Positions 1 through 19,181 of a stretch of 64,000 nt of DNA are shown here, one piece after another (positions within the stretch are counted from its first letter, which is position 1; each line of letters starts with the position of its first letter). The stretch spans positions 1 to 64,000 of the forward strand of contig NZ_BJLP01000008.1 of NCBI RefSeq assembly GCF_006538705.1, read 5' to 3'. Both the position numbers and the translations under genes were made by a program. The notes under the pieces are model-generated. The model ran no database searches, had not been told where the DNA came from, and saw only the letters and a program-made list of their open reading frames with translations. The DNA comes from Cellulomonas uda (GTDB lineage: Bacteria; Actinomycetota; Actinomycetes; Actinomycetales; Cellulomonadaceae).

Positions 1-69
1 CCGGTCGGTGCGGGTCGGTCGGTGCGGGCCGGTCGGCCGGTGGGGCCGGCGCAACCCGCCCCGCCCTCG

Positions 70-199
70 CGAGACCGTCGTTACTCCGGGTAGGCCCGTT
101 CATAGCCGGAGCAACCACGGGCTCGGCAGACCCCACCCCCGCGAGACCGTCGTTGCTCCGGGTCAGGTCGCTCATACCCGGAGCAACCGCGGGGTCGGC
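70..199. repeat. Paired hairpin repeat, pair 1
   Basis: Two about 58-bp units at 70-127 and 142-199, offset by exactly 72 bp. Each has a 19-nt left arm ending in a CTCCGG-like hexamer, a loop of about 16 nt, and a right arm beginning CCGGAGCAAC and ending GGGTCGG or a variant. The arms are imperfect reverse complements. The same unit recurs at six further paired loci in this window (10290, 17332, 18597, 18774, 19052, 38041), always intergenic and always with the 72-bp offset. Confidence 0.85.
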
Positions 200-425: not shown

Positions 426-2936
426 GTGATCGACGCGCTCTCCTCCGCCGGTCCCCCCGGCGCGCCGGCGTGGCACTGGCTGCCCGAGCAGGCCGACGCG
501 CCCTCGACGGCGGACCTGGAGCGGGCGCGCACCGAGGCCGAGGCGCTGCTCGCAGACCACGGCGTCACGTACGGCGCGGCCGACGAGCACGAGCCGTGGC
601 GTCTCGACCCGGCACCCGTCGTGCTCGACGAGGACGACTGGGCCGGCCTCGAGGCCGGCATCACGCAGCGCGCCGAGCTGCTCGACGCCGTGCTGCAGGA
701 CCTGTACGGCGCACGGCGCCTGCTGACGGACACGGTCCTGCCGCCCACGGCCGTCGTCGCGCACCCCGGGTTCCTGCGCGCGGTCGACGGCCTGCGCCTG
801 CCGGGCGGTCGCGAGCTCGTGCTCGCCTCGACGGACCTCGCACGCGACGACGACGGCACGTGGCTGTCGCTGGCCGACCGCACGCAGGCGCCCTCCGGCG
901 CGGGGTACACGATGGAGGGACGGCGCGTCGTCGCGCAGGTGCTCGCCGGCGTCTACCGCGCGACCCCGATCGCCCGGCTCGGACCGTTCTTCCGCGCGCT
1001 GCGTCAGACGCTCCACGACGTCGCGCCGCCGTCCGCGAGCGCGCCACGCATCGCGCTGCTCACGCCCGGACCGGGCTCGCAGACGGCGTTCGACCAGGCC
1101 TACCTCGCCTCGATGCTCGGCCTGCCGCTGGTCGAGGCGTCCGACCTGGTGGTTCGCGACGGGCGGCTGTGGGTGCGCGCGCTGGGCGGCACGGAGCCCG
1201 TGGACGTGCTGCTGCGCCGCGTCGACGCCGCGTGGTGCGACCCGCTCGACCTGCGCTCCGGCTCGCGGCTCGGCGTCCCCGGCCTGGTCCGCGCGGTGCG
1301 CGGCGGTGCGTTGTCGGTGGTGAACCCGCTGGGCTCGGGCGTGCTGGAGAACCCCGCGGTGCTGGCGGCGCTGCCGCGGCTCGCGCGCACGGTGCTCGAC
1401 CAGGACCTGCTGCTGCCGTCCGCGCCCACGTGGTGGTGCGGCGAGGCGTCGTCGTTGTCGCACGTGCTCGCGCACCTCGACGAGCTCGTCGTGCTGCCGC
1501 TGTCCCGCGAGCAGGACGCGGTGCTCGGCTGGACGCTCGACGCCGCGGCGCGTGAGCAGCTCGCGGCGCGGATCGCCGCGGAGCCGTGGCAGTGGGCGGG
1601 GCAGGCGCGCGTGGGCGGCGGCGCGGTCGTCGAGCCCGTGGCGTCCGACGAGGTCGCGCGGCCGGACGGTCCGGGCGTCGGGGTGCTGCGCACGTTCGCG
1701 GTCGCGCACCGCGGCTCGTACACGGTCATGGCGGGCGGGCTCGCGCGGGTGGCCCACGGACCGGTGGTGTCCTCACGCACGGGCGCGGTCGCGAAGGACG
1801 TGTGGGTGCTCTCCGGCTCGGTGGGCGATGCGGCACCGGACGCGGCCGAGGGCGTCACCGAGGTCGACGCCGCGCGGCGCACGCGACTGGGCGTGTCCTC
1901 CCGCACCGCCGAGAACCTGTTCTGGCTGGGCCGCTACGCCGAGCGCGCCGAGGACCAGGCGCGCGACCTGCGGGTCGTCGTCGACCGGTGGGACGACTTC
2001 CACGGCCGGCCGCGCTCGGCGGGCGGCCGCGCGCTCGCCGTGCTCGTCGCCGCGCTGCGCGACCCGGACGCGCCCGCCGACGGCCCCGCACCGACCCTGC
2101 GGGAGCTCACGCTCGAGCGCGGCCTCGACGGCTCGATCGCCGCGTCGGTGCGCGGCCTGGGCCAGGCGGCTGCCGCGGTGCGCGACCAGCTCTCCACGGA
2201 CACGTTCGGCCCGCTCGCGCGCATCGAGCGCGCGCTGCGCGCGGAACGCGCGCGCCAGCGGGTGCCCGAGGGTGGGCTCGACCTGGGTGTCGACGACGCG
2301 CGCGCCGCCACCGCGGGCCTGCGCCCGGTGCTCGACCGGACGCTCGAGGGGCTGCTCGCGGTCGCGGGCACGGTCGCCGAGGGCCTCGTGCGCGACGTCG
2401 GCTGGCACCTGCTCGACGCGGGCCGTCGGCTCGAGCGCGCGCAGCACGTGGTCGCATCGCTGCGCCGCACGCTCGTCGGGCCCCTCACCCGCACCGTGGA
2501 GGCGCACCTGGTCGACTCGGTGGTGCTCGCGCACGACTCCTCGATCACGTTCCGCCGCCGCTACGGGGACCACACGGGCGTCCCCGCGGTGCTCGACCTG
2601 CTGCTGCTCGACGAGAGCAACCCGCGCTCGTTGGCGTTCCAGCTCGACCGCCTCGAGCGCGACCTCGCGGGCATCCCGATGCGCGCGCGGCCGACCGACG
2701 AGCGCGACCGGCTCCTCGCGCAGGTGCGGGACCTGGTCGCCGAGCTCGACCCGGCGGCCGCTGCCACGACCGACGACGACGGGCGCCGCACGCGTCTCGC
2801 CGAGCTCCTCGACTCGATGCACTGGCGCCTGCTCGCGCTCGCCGACGAGATCGAGGCGGTGCACTTCGCGCGGCCCGTCGCGGCGCGCGCCCTCGACGAC
2901 CCGTGGGACGCGGGCGACGAGGAGGAGGTGCCGTGA
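426..2936 (+). CDS. Circularly permuted ATP-grasp / alpha-E fusion protein
   Basis: 836 residues from a GTG start, the only sensible start in this frame after the intergenic hairpin; the ribosome site is weak. The first roughly 500 residues match the circularly permuted type 2 ATP-grasp family (formerly DUF404/407), with blocks such as VVAHPGFLRAV and GSGVLENPAV. The last roughly 310 residues match the alpha-E (DUF403) helical domain, starting near SSRTAENLFWLGRYAERAED. Many genomes encode these as two genes; here they are fused. The stop overlaps the start of a transglutaminase gene (GTGA), the standard partner. ATP-grasp enzymes ligate carboxylates to amines, and this trio has been predicted from gene neighbourhoods to make or attach a peptide-like tag. 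The substrate is unknown. The family call is firm; the function is inference. Confidence 0.85.
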   Translation: MIDALSSAGPPGAPAWHWLPEQADAPSTADLERARTEAEALLADHGVTYGAADEHEPWRLDPAPVVLDEDDWAGLEAGITQRAELLDAVLQDLYGARRLLTDTVLPPTAVVAHPGFLRAVDGLRLPGGRELVLASTDLARDDDGTWLSLADRTQAPSGAGYTMEGRRVVAQVLAGVYRATPIARLGPFFRALRQTLHDVAPPSASAPRIALLTPGPGSQTAFDQAYLASMLGLPLVEASDLVVRDGRLWVRALGGTEPVDVLLRRVDAAWCDPLDLRSGSRLGVPGLVRAVRGGALSVVNPLGSGVLENPAVLAALPRLARTVLDQDLLLPSAPTWWCGEASSLSHVLAHLDELVVLPLSREQDAVLGWTLDAAAREQLAARIAAEPWQWAGQARVGGGAVVEPVASDEVARPDGPGVGVLRTFAVAHRGSYTVMAGGLARVAHGPVVSSRTGAVAKDVWVLSGSVGDAAPDAAEGVTEVDAARRTRLGVSSRTAENLFWLGRYAERAEDQARDLRVVVDRWDDFHGRPRSAGGRALAVLVAALRDPDAPADGPAPTLRELTLERGLDGSIAASVRGLGQAAAAVRDQLSTDTFGPLARIERALRAERARQRVPEGGLDLGVDDARAATAGLRPVLDRTLEGLLAVAGTVAEGLVRDVGWHLLDAGRRLERAQHVVASLRRTLVGPLTRTVEAHLVDSVVLAHDSSITFRRRYGDHTGVPAVLDLLLLDESNPRSLAFQLDRLERDLAGIPMRARPTDERDRLLAQVRDLVAELDPAAAATTDDDGRRTRLAELLDSMHWRLLALADEIEAVHFARPVAARALDDPWDAGDEEEVP

Positions 2937-3853
2937 GCCGCACGTACGACCTCGTGCACCGCACGACCTACACCTACCCGCAGGAGGTCACGGACTCCTA
3001 CGGCCGGACCGTCATGACGCCCCGGGACCTGCCCGGTCAGACCGTCCTGACCAGCCACGTCGAGGTGGACCCCGCCCCCGCGGACACGGCGGTCCAGCAC
3101 GACTACTTCGGCAACCGCACCACGTTCTACGCGGTCACGCAGCCGCACACGACGCTCGTCGTGACCGCCCGTTCGACCATCGAGATCACGCGCGGCCGCC
3201 CCGACGCCGGCGCGCTCCCGCAGGTCGCGTGGGACGACGCGGCCGAGGCCGTGGCGACCGGCTCGGCCGCCGCCGCGTTCTCCTCCGACGTGCTCGTGCA
3301 GGTCCGTGAGATGGTGCTCCCGTCGACGCACGTCACGTTCGTCGACGAGGTGCGGGCGTGGGCCGAGCCGTCGTTCGTGCCCGGTCGGCCGCTCGCGCAC
3401 GTCCTCGTCGACCTGTGCCACCGGATCCGCCACGAGCTCACGTACCGCACCGGGTCGACGACCGTGCACACGACGCAGCGGCAGCTCCTCGCGCAGGGTG
3501 CGGGCGTGTGCCAGGACTTCGCGCACCTGATGATCGCGGCGCTGCGGCTGCACGGGGTGCCCGCGCGGTACGTCAGCGGGTACATCGAGACGCTCCCGCC
3601 GCCGGGGCGCGAGAAGCTGCGCGGCGCGGACGCGTCGCACGCGTGGGTCTCGGTGTGGGTCCCGGGGGCCGGGTGGGTCGACGCGGACCCGACGAACGAC
3701 CAGCTCGTCGACGACCGCTACGTGGTGCTGGGCTGGGGCCGCGACTATCACGACGTCCCGCCGCTGCGGGGCGTGATCTTCACCGAGGGTCGCGGCTCGA
3801 AGCTGTCCGTGCAGGTCGACCTGGTGCCGGCGGGGTCGCCCGCGTTCGAGTGA
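2933..3853 (+). CDS. Transglutaminase-like cysteine protease family protein
   Basis: 306 residues from GTG, overlapping the preceding stop by 4 bases, with a GAGGAGG ribosome site just before it. It opens with the bacterial transglutaminase N-terminal beta domain (SRTYDLVHRTTYTYP...) and continues into the transglutaminase core. The catalytic triad is visible: Cys in GAGVCQDFAHLMIAALR, His in DASHAWVSVWVPG, and Asp in DADPTNDQL. No signal peptide is seen, so it probably acts in the cytoplasm. Coupling to the ATP-grasp/alpha-E gene suggests that one enzyme ligates and the other cleaves or transfers an isopeptide bond. That role is inferred from context. Confidence 0.88.
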   Translation: MSRTYDLVHRTTYTYPQEVTDSYGRTVMTPRDLPGQTVLTSHVEVDPAPADTAVQHDYFGNRTTFYAVTQPHTTLVVTARSTIEITRGRPDAGALPQVAWDDAAEAVATGSAAAAFSSDVLVQVREMVLPSTHVTFVDEVRAWAEPSFVPGRPLAHVLVDLCHRIRHELTYRTGSTTVHTTQRQLLAQGAGVCQDFAHLMIAALRLHGVPARYVSGYIETLPPPGREKLRGADASHAWVSVWVPGAGWVDADPTNDQLVDDRYVVLGWGRDYHDVPPLRGVIFTEGRGSKLSVQVDLVPAGSPAFE

Positions 3854-4732
3854 TCAGCGCGGGGGGACCGCGCGGCGGGTGACCTCGTCGGACCGCACGA
3901 CGAAGCCCCCCTCGTCGACGACCGTCCCGCCCGCGGCACGCCACAGCGCCGCCGTGACGCGCGCGATCGTCGGTGCGACGCGCCGGCGTGCGATCGCGGA
4001 CAGCGACGAGTCGGGGTCCTCGCCGTCCGCGGGCTGCCAGCGCACGTGGTACGCCCACGGCCCGTACTCGCGCCAGTCGAGGGTCGCGAGCACCGCGGGC
4101 ACGTCGTCGGACCGCGCCGAGCGCAGCGTCACCGTGCCGTCGTAGTCGAAGACGGCCGTGACCGCGCACTCCTGCGGTCCGCCGCCCACCTGCGTCGGGA
4201 CCTCCGTGGGCGAGACGCGCGCCCCGACCATCGCCGGACGCACGAGCGGCAGGACGTCGCGCGGCGCGAGCGGGACCGGCGACCACAGGGTCAGCCCGGG
4301 GGCGCCCTGCGGGTCGGGGACGACGACGTCGGTGCGCGACGCGGGCACGAGCAGACCGCCGGCGTGCCGCGCGGCGGCCGTGCACCACGCGCTCAGCTGG
4401 GGCGAGGCGGGCCCCTCGACGCCGTAGAGGTCGAGCGCCTCGCCGGCGCGCAGACCGGTCGCACGCACCTCGTCGGACGTGAGGGGACGCGGCCCGACGA
4501 GCACCGCGCCGCCCACGGCGAGCCGGCCGGGCACCGCGCTCGGGGCGTCCTGCACGACGATCCCGCGGAACCGCGCACCCGTCATCGGCCGGGCGACGGG
4601 GGCGGCGGTCGCGGGCTCGCGCTCCCATGCGGCGTCCGCGAACCACGCGCGCGCGAGCGCGAGGAGGTCGGTGCCCTGGGGCAGGGCGAGAACGTGCTGG
4701 TCGGAGAGCTCGACGGGCAGCGTGACGTTCAT
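3854..4732 (-). CDS. Conserved hypothetical protein
   Basis: 292 residues from the ATG at 4732; an upstream in-frame ATG adds an Arg/Lys-rich stretch that overlaps the promoter dyad and is less likely. I do not recognise a family. The N-terminal half has an LPQGTDLLALARAWF segment. The C-terminal half has a beta-rich stretch with FDYDGTVTLRSARSDDVPAVLATLDWREYGPWAYHVRW, given here only as position (about residues 190-230). There is no signal peptide or membrane segment. The stop abuts that of the convergent transglutaminase gene (TGATCA), so little room for a terminator is left. A perfect 9-bp-arm dyad lies 44-68 bases upstream of the start. Confidence 0.7.
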   Translation of the reverse strand: MNVTLPVELSDQHVLALPQGTDLLALARAWFADAAWEREPATAAPVARPMTGARFRGIVVQDAPSAVPGRLAVGGAVLVGPRPLTSDEVRATGLRAGEALDLYGVEGPASPQLSAWCTAAARHAGGLLVPASRTDVVVPDPQGAPGLTLWSPVPLAPRDVLPLVRPAMVGARVSPTEVPTQVGGGPQECAVTAVFDYDGTVTLRSARSDDVPAVLATLDWREYGPWAYHVRWQPADGEDPDSSLSAIARRRVAPTIARVTAALWRAAGGTVVDEGGFVVRSDEVTRRAVPPR

Positions 4733-4775
4733 GGGAGCGGACGCTAGGGCACGGATGCTGCGCTTGTGTTTCGTC

Positions 4776-4800
4776 CGTGTCACTTGGTGCGAGTGACACG
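4776..4800. promoter_or_regulatory. Inverted repeat upstream of the hypothetical gene
   Basis: CGTGTCACT (4776-4784), 7-nt spacer, AGTGACACG (4792-4800): a perfect 9-bp-arm dyad in the promoter region of the leftward gene that starts at 4732. Size and symmetry fit an operator for a dimeric helix-turn-helix regulator. The regulator is unknown. Confidence 0.5.
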
Positions 4801-18596: not shown

Positions 18597-18726
18597 CGAG
18601 ACCGTCGTAGCTCCGGGTATGGCGCAGCAGAGCCGGCGCAAGCACGGGGTCGGCAGACCGGTCGACGACGAGACCGTCGTTGCTCCGGCTACCGCGAGCC
18701 AGAGCCGGAGCAACCGCAGGGTCGAC
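18597..18726. repeat. Paired hairpin repeat, pair 4
   Basis: Units at 18597-18654 and 18669-18726, offset 72 bp. The inter-unit spacer AGACCGGTCGACGA is nearly the same as in pairs 5 and 6, which points to duplication of the whole pair. Confidence 0.88.
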
Positions 18727-18773
18727 AGGAGCGGGGTCGACGGGAGCATGGGGGTCGGCAGACGCGCGGGCGA

Positions 18774-18903
18774 CGAGACCGTCGTTGCGCCAGGTATGGC
18801 GCAGCACAGCCGGGGCAAGCACGGGGTCGGCAGTCCGGTCGACGCCGAGACCGTCGTTGCTCCGGCTACCGCGGGCCAGAGCCGGAGCAACCGCGGGGTC
18901 GGC
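18774..18903. repeat. Paired hairpin repeat, pair 5
   Basis: Units at 18774-18831 and 18846-18903, offset 72 bp. The first loop is GTATGGCGCAGCACAG and the second CTACCGCGGGCCAGAG. The same two loop types occur in the same order in pair 4. Confidence 0.88.
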
Positions 18904-18931
18904 GGGAGCGCGAAGTCGATGGGAGCGCGAG

Positions 18932-19032
18932 GTCGACGGGAGAACGGGGTCGACGGGAGGACGGGGTCGACGGGAGAACGGGGTCGACGGGAGAACGGGG
19001 TCGACGGGAGGACGGGGTCGACGGGAGGACGG
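18932..19032. repeat. 17-bp tandem array
   Basis: Five full copies of GTCGACGGGAGRACGGG (18932, 18949, 18966, 18983, 19000) plus a partial sixth. Units differ only by A/G at one position. The array fills the gap between repeat pairs 5 and 6 and has no coding sense. Confidence 0.9.
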
Positions 19033-19051
19033 TCGGCAGACGCGCGGGCGA

Positions 19052-19181
19052 CGAGACCGTCGTTGCGCCAGGTATGGGGCAGCAGAGCCGGAGCAACGAC
19101 GGGGTCGGCAGTCCGGTCGACGACGAGACCGTCGTTGCTCCGGGTATGGCGCGGCAGAGCCGGAGCAACCGCGGGGTCGGG
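19052..19181. repeat. Paired hairpin repeat, pair 6
   Basis: Units at 19052-19109 and 19124-19181, offset 72 bp. The last unit is the cleanest: 19-nt arms (19125-19143 and 19160-19178) separated by a 16-nt loop, with mismatches confined to the base and the middle of the stem. Confidence 0.9.

Follow-up and report, generated by a model that had tools for sequence, protein, structure and literature searches.

The window analysed here, the 64,000 nucleotides at positions 1 to 64,000 of contig NZ_BJLP01000008.1 of Cellulomonas uda (assembly GCF_006538705.1), contains a two-gene operon (426-3853, forward strand) in which a circularly permuted ATP-grasp domain and an Alpha-E domain form one protein, with a transglutaminase-like protein encoded directly downstream. 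We refer to the latter, the small partner, as TG and to the degenerate ligase domain as pseudo-ATP-grasp, both labels being coined in this analysis. The ATP-grasp half of the fused protein lacks the E-x-N pair, the first ATP lysine and the glycine loop of its standalone relatives, and sequence comparison indicates that this loss is clade-wide and no local accident. The pair is a known kind of system in degenerate-ligase form. We give about an even chance to the reading, drawn from these comparisons, that the two proteins are a pseudo-ligase and a cysteine-peptidase-like enzyme working beside an active ATP-grasp ligase, and not a self-sufficient ligation unit.

Systems built from ATP-grasp, Alpha-E and transglutaminase domains are widespread, and the relevant passages of PMC5666114, PMC6376114 and PMC3597751 propose peptide synthesis or tagging for them; those accounts still name no product. 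A first-pass annotation had described the operon as a peptide-ligation or protein-tagging unit, which holds for the kind of system but not for this operon acting by itself, given the lost ATP-site residues. If the fused member indeed cannot ligate, assaying it alone would fail to reveal the product, and annotating it as a ligase misleads.

Loss of the ATP-site residues in the fused protein

The fused gene (426..2936, plus strand) runs from a GTG start to a TGA stop and encodes 836 amino acids. Pfam profiles place CP_ATPgrasp_2 (PF14403; 422.9 bits, cut-off 32) at residues 64-443 (615..1754) and Alpha-E (PF04168; 212.6 bits, cut-off 20.8) at residues 491-814 (1896..2867), so that the two domains share one reading frame, as had been proposed. 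The ER motif of Alpha-E lies in GRYAER at residues 502-507, and neither E506 nor R507 varies among 29 proteins. The predicted model of the fused protein is confident (pLDDT 85.7) and retains the ATP-grasp fold: the model (mf3acc660fb35) aligns with 3n6x, a “putative glutathionylspermidine synthase” from Methylobacillus flagellatus, at Z 39.0 and an rmsd of 3.5 over 428 residues, and with glutathione synthetases at Z about 25. 3n6x was also the sole credible match in a PDB profile search with 21 standalone proteins. It has its fold in common with the fused protein but keeps LEDNLR, DDK and an SGGYG loop, which the fused protein does not. The Alpha-E half matched no solved structure at E values up to 1; its helical-bundle matches to cytochrome bd (Z about 10) were middling and were not trusted. 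The closest named match to the whole protein, from Cellulomonas sp. PhB150, is 68% identical. Neither the fused protein nor TG matched NCBIfam or PADLOC, and the latter thus offered nothing to suggest a defence system.

ATP-grasp enzymes carry the E-x-N pair as their Mg2+ motif. It can be read in Escherichia coli DdlB (LLEANTSPG, E at 270), GshB (LTEINVTSP, E at 281) and GspS (VYEYNADS, E330 and N332), the last of which also carries K533 within AVKPIAGRCG. The GspS ligands, which we take to be positions 318, 330, 332, 498 and 533, are D, E, N, K and K when checked on the sequence. Passages on glutathione synthetases (PMC2845819) assign roles to a pair of lysines, to a glycine loop and to acidic residues that coordinate Mg2+. 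No alignment was obtained when the standalone family was compared with E. coli GspS by profile, and our mapping of residues to GspS and glutathione synthetase therefore rests on motif, spacing and fold.

The standalone sequences LEDNVRVPSG, ADDK and VVKPVDGSGGKG correspond in the window protein to LADRTQAPSG, LENP and VVLPLSREQD. At codons 150-152 (873..881) A-D-R replaces the E-x-N pair, which has become A150 and R152. At codons 308-310 (1347..1355) E-N-P replaces D-D-K, and the first ATP lysine is P310. At codons 357-364 (1494..1517) LPLSREQD replaces the KPVDGSGGKG region; the second ATP lysine is L357 and the glycine loop is deleted.

These losses are uniform in 37 fused proteins compared with 31 standalone ones, collected by whole-gene searches of the window's family and class. 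A wider set of 80 loci from named genomes comprises 50 from Actinomycetota, 18 from Pseudomonadota, 3 from Planctomycetota, two each from Verrucomicrobiota, Poribacteria and Bacteroidota, one each from Chloroflexota and Acidobacteriota, and one unassigned. The pattern held for its 117 fused rows set against 47 standalone ones, apart from two exceptions that keep E or N singly and never both. Because that set came from a search with an ADRTQAPSG-type pattern, which favours the changed motif, we made additional whole-gene searches in three groups: 143 genomes of the class to which a Cellvibrio genome belongs, 79 of the phylum of a Planctomyces genome and 80 of that of a Reichenbachiella genome. 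Fused proteins from these searches also lack the motif, and the 54 fused rows found by whole-gene searching, which serve as a control for the pattern bias, show the same losses.

Taken together, the fused set holds 134 rows, 131 of them distinct, spread over at least eight phyla. Not one has E and N together, the first ATP lysine or all three loop glycines, whereas every one of 126 standalone rows keeps the E-x-N pair, lysine and glycines. Two short fragments among the fused rows were checked separately in their full frames and show the same motif loss. The counts exclude the standalone fragments of L188, L193, L195 and L197, the row L223, the broken fused row L187 and the long-N-terminus proteins L185 and L186; because selection went by locus number, L193, L195 and L197 are still represented by their full fused rows. 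The second ATP lysine site is less uniform: 115 of the 134 fused rows have K or R there, and the window has leucine.

The first-pass annotation had let its ligation reading hang on intact catalytic residues in close relatives; in those relatives, as in the window, the E-x-N pair, first lysine and loop are gone, and the operon is thus by itself no credible ligation unit. The reading implied by that annotation, in which the fused protein still ligates peptides at the expense of ATP, its ATP site being rearranged, draws on the retained fold and many retained active-site neighbours, on D137 (the position equivalent to an Mg2+ ligand; D in 125 of 134 fused rows), on the basic residue at the second lysine site of most fused rows, and on the standalone relative from Yersinia bercovieri, which releases phosphate from ATP according to a passage that also reports Anbu peptidase activity to be absent (PMC6376114). 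We consider it very doubtful, because the E-x-N pair, first lysine and glycine triad are missing from every fused row that covers them and the window has leucine at the second lysine. A literature search for inactive ATP-grasp proteins found no report; Iyer et al. 2009 lay outside that search.

The fused proteins have fixed residues of their own. D is replaced by E at 308 in 130 of 134 rows, R by Q at 154 in 127 and S by G at 160 in 128, while R140, D151, R264, R265, N300, R422, K457 and D458 are common to fused and standalone proteins, and 79 columns are invariant across 29 fused proteins. In a tree made by a quick method without bootstrap, the fused proteins fall on one branch (SH-aLRT 100; 49 fused against 40 others). 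Their reading frames are uninterrupted, at 40-68% identity to the window's protein. We therefore rejected the idea that the fused gene is a frameshifted or decaying copy. A functionless duplicate would fit the lost catalytic residues and one interrupted copy, in genome G262, but is extremely improbable given open frames, group-specific residues fixed across phyla and a conserved operon order. The same fixed residues in at least eight phyla, with the 79 invariant columns, could instead mark a pocket rebuilt for a reaction or ligand without Mg-ATP, making the fused protein a new type of enzyme or sensor. We rate this as unlikely on balance, since conserved surfaces could equally serve to bind a partner protein.

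Association with an intact standalone ligase

The window's genome has a second set of these genes, with standalone ATP-grasp, Alpha-E and TG genes on contig C13. The C13 copies outscore those of the window for PF14403 (545.9 against 425.7 bits) and for PF04168 (277.1 against 215.7 bits). An EAL-domain frame lies upstream of the C13 set and MDMPI and LepA frames downstream; Anbu was not among ten frames scanned around it, and no genome-wide search for Anbu was made.

An intact standalone copy accompanies the fused gene in 53/54, 28/29, 10/10, 4/4 and 1/1 genomes by search, or 93 of 95 once three genomes counted twice are excluded; the genomes share ancestry, so these are not independent events. 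The reverse dependence fails, the fused gene being found in only 8 of the 61 family genomes searched, 30 of which bear Alpha-E, and in 47 of 125 matching genomes of the class. Of the two exceptions, one is G364, which was reached through a metagenome-assembled locus, and the other is G262. The latter is a single contig in which the fused gene is interrupted (L187) and the standalone ATP-grasp gene truncated (L188), a picture that resembles joint loss of the two modules. Besides their fused and standalone copies, genomes G041 and G271 encode a third type of circularly permuted ATP-grasp protein (L185, 6869-9535; L186, 5771-8311), which retains the E-D-N motif and is extended at its N terminus by about 430 residues.

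Gene order links the fused gene to TG and, at some loci, to the standalone module. At 70 of 80 loci TG lies directly 3′ of the fused gene in the same orientation; at six it is close by but inverted, and at four, two of which had fewer than 300 bases left, it was not found. Where at least 1.2 kb of upstream sequence was available, a large TG directly precedes the fused gene in 53 of 73 loci. The full order of standalone ATP-grasp, Alpha-E, large TG, fused gene and TG occurs in 10 of 80 loci, including Gammaproteobacteria, Gemmata, Poribacteria and Verrucomicrobia. Cellulomonas-type loci consist of the fused gene and TG alone. PF09899, the large TG/amidoligase family, is absent from the window's genome, so that the pair also lacks that amidoligase; a copy hidden elsewhere in the genome is rejected on the same ground. 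In several mycobacteria (L095, L097, L103, L104, L117 and L123) TG is inverted and lies about 1 to 4 kb from the fused gene, the operon link being broken while both genes persist.

No clear candidate for a consistent small substrate gene, of the kind that a Pup-like tagging system has and that the first-pass annotation had suggested seeking in related genomes, emerged around the 80 loci, and no gene is conserved upstream of the fused gene across 12 Cellulomonas-type loci. The 80 loci are surrounded by 3646 small open reading frames; among the 12 largest clusters listed, three span two phyla, and by eye the listed sequences look like shadow frames.

In our estimate the operon is quite unlikely to work separately from the standalone ligase, with the fused protein merely a chaperone or specificity subunit of a transglutaminase-like peptidase. 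The regular position of TG directly downstream would suit such an arrangement, as would the two-gene unit of the Cellulomonas group with no conserved gene upstream; against it, hardly any genome carries the fused gene but no standalone ligase, both modules occupy one operon in several phyla, and TG is inverted at six loci.

Two described arrangements are close to that of the window. The Rv2566-Rv2567-type cluster pairs a large TG bearing the amidoligase domain PF09899 with a fused gene of the same family and has the same small TG; it differs from the window's genome in having PF09899. We take Rv2567 to be the fused ATP-grasp/Alpha-E protein. Rv2566 is a TG plus ligase in the passage describing it (PMC2588565). 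The Anbu-type operon, for which passages of PMC5666114 and PMC6376114 cite Iyer et al. 2009, comprises ATP-grasp, Alpha-E, transglutaminase and Anbu; it uses the same three domain families and is proposed to act in peptide synthesis or modification. Its ATP-grasp and Alpha-E are separate proteins, and the ATP-grasp, in Y. bercovieri, releases phosphate from ATP, whereas those of the window are fused, with the ATP site lost and no Anbu adjoining: a convergent gene follows the end of the window operon at 3853.

The transglutaminase-like partner and a candidate mechanism

TG (2933..3853, plus strand) is a papain-fold protein of 306 amino acids. Both Bact_transglu_N and Transglut_core score above cut-off over 2933-3850, and the alignment shows Cys, His and Asp in all 124 aligned TG partners, the window's included. 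The model has a pLDDT of 89.1, and its nearest solved fold is 3isr from Cytophaga hutchinsonii (TM-score 0.74-0.76 by query length); that entry is labelled a putative cysteine protease and shares 18-19% identity with TG. The Mycobacterium tuberculosis orthologue of TG is probably Rv2569c, to judge from how the genes are arranged at mycobacterial loci and from the order of Rv2566-Rv2569c as we assume it to be. In the passages concerned, Rv2569c degrades casein and other proteins, and its response to inhibitors led to its being classed as a serine protease (PMC11081392).

In the reading to which we give an even chance, the fused protein keeps the ATP-grasp fold, with conserved residues whose positions could let them hold a substrate, but has dispensed with the elements for binding Mg2+ and the phosphates of ATP; having lost these, it should form no acyl phosphates or peptide bonds from ATP. 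The pseudo-ATP-grasp platform and the Alpha-E half would most likely bind the substrate or product of an active ATP-grasp/Alpha-E enzyme, here that on contig C13, or pair with that enzyme. Bound material would then be presented to the co-translated TG, which would hydrolyse or transfer an amide bond. The whole would form a cytosolic system that makes and trims an amide or peptide, possibly tied to nitrogen shortage. More tentatively, throughout this multi-phylum clade a ligase pocket may have become an Mg-ATP-free site for binding substrate or product, perhaps even a catalytic one, that works only beside its active sister; this ligase/pseudo-ligase pair would act together with a papain-fold enzyme that hydrolyses or transfers amides, Cellulomonas having the minimal two-gene form.

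The nitrogen link comes from published expression data. Passages of PMC8050072 report higher expression on nitrate than on ammonium in Pseudomonas putida for PP_2685 (Anbu, proteasome beta subunit; log2 4.44) and PP_2688 (ATP-grasp type 2; log2 3.99), and in Burkholderia cenocepacia DUF404/407, DUF403 and two transglutaminase-like genes are described as NtrC-dependent (PMC5491218).

Several points weigh against the make-and-trim reading. These nitrogen data concern the standalone operon in proteobacteria, and neither the fused gene nor actinobacteria, so that for the window's pair the link is a guess. Y. bercovieri Anbu-operon proteins gave no stable complex when co-expressed, in a passage of PMC6376114. 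Genome G364 has the fused gene without a standalone one. The K or R kept at the second lysine site of most fused rows means that fused proteins outside the window's genus may still bind nucleotide weakly. By analogy, Rv2569c supports a peptidase role for TG only weakly, because its serine-protease class was assigned from inhibitors.

Locus boundaries and neighbouring elements

The junction between the fused gene and TG reads GAGGAGGTGCCGTGAGCC. Here the GTG start at 2933 overlaps the TGA stop at 2934-2936 (GTGA), with a ribosome-binding-site-like GGAGG directly 5′ (together 2919..2936, plus strand, read from the sequence). The translational coupling noted in the first-pass annotation is therefore well grounded. 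The GTG start of the fused gene at 426 is plausible and not proven, since the frame is already open from base 3. Base 1 of the window is also the first base of contig C8, one of 103 contigs in a 3.56 Mb genome, and sequence further upstream of the fused gene is consequently out of view.

The next gene (3854-4783) lies on the minus strand, convergent with the operon, and had no match in a Pfam search. It is present in all 61 family genomes searched, against eight with the fused gene; we rejected it as a partner and agree with the earlier view that it is unrelated and outside the operon.

A palindromic element, CGTCGTTNCTCCGGGT ... ACCCGGAGCAAC, occurs in two tandem copies 5′ of the fused gene (window 59-199). 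Six further copies of its core lie in the window, at positions including 10396 and 18603-19145 (8 found, 0.03 expected); the full exact palindrome has one occurrence in the genome. Predicted RNA folding gave z −3.07 for 128-200 and −0.64 for 56-128.

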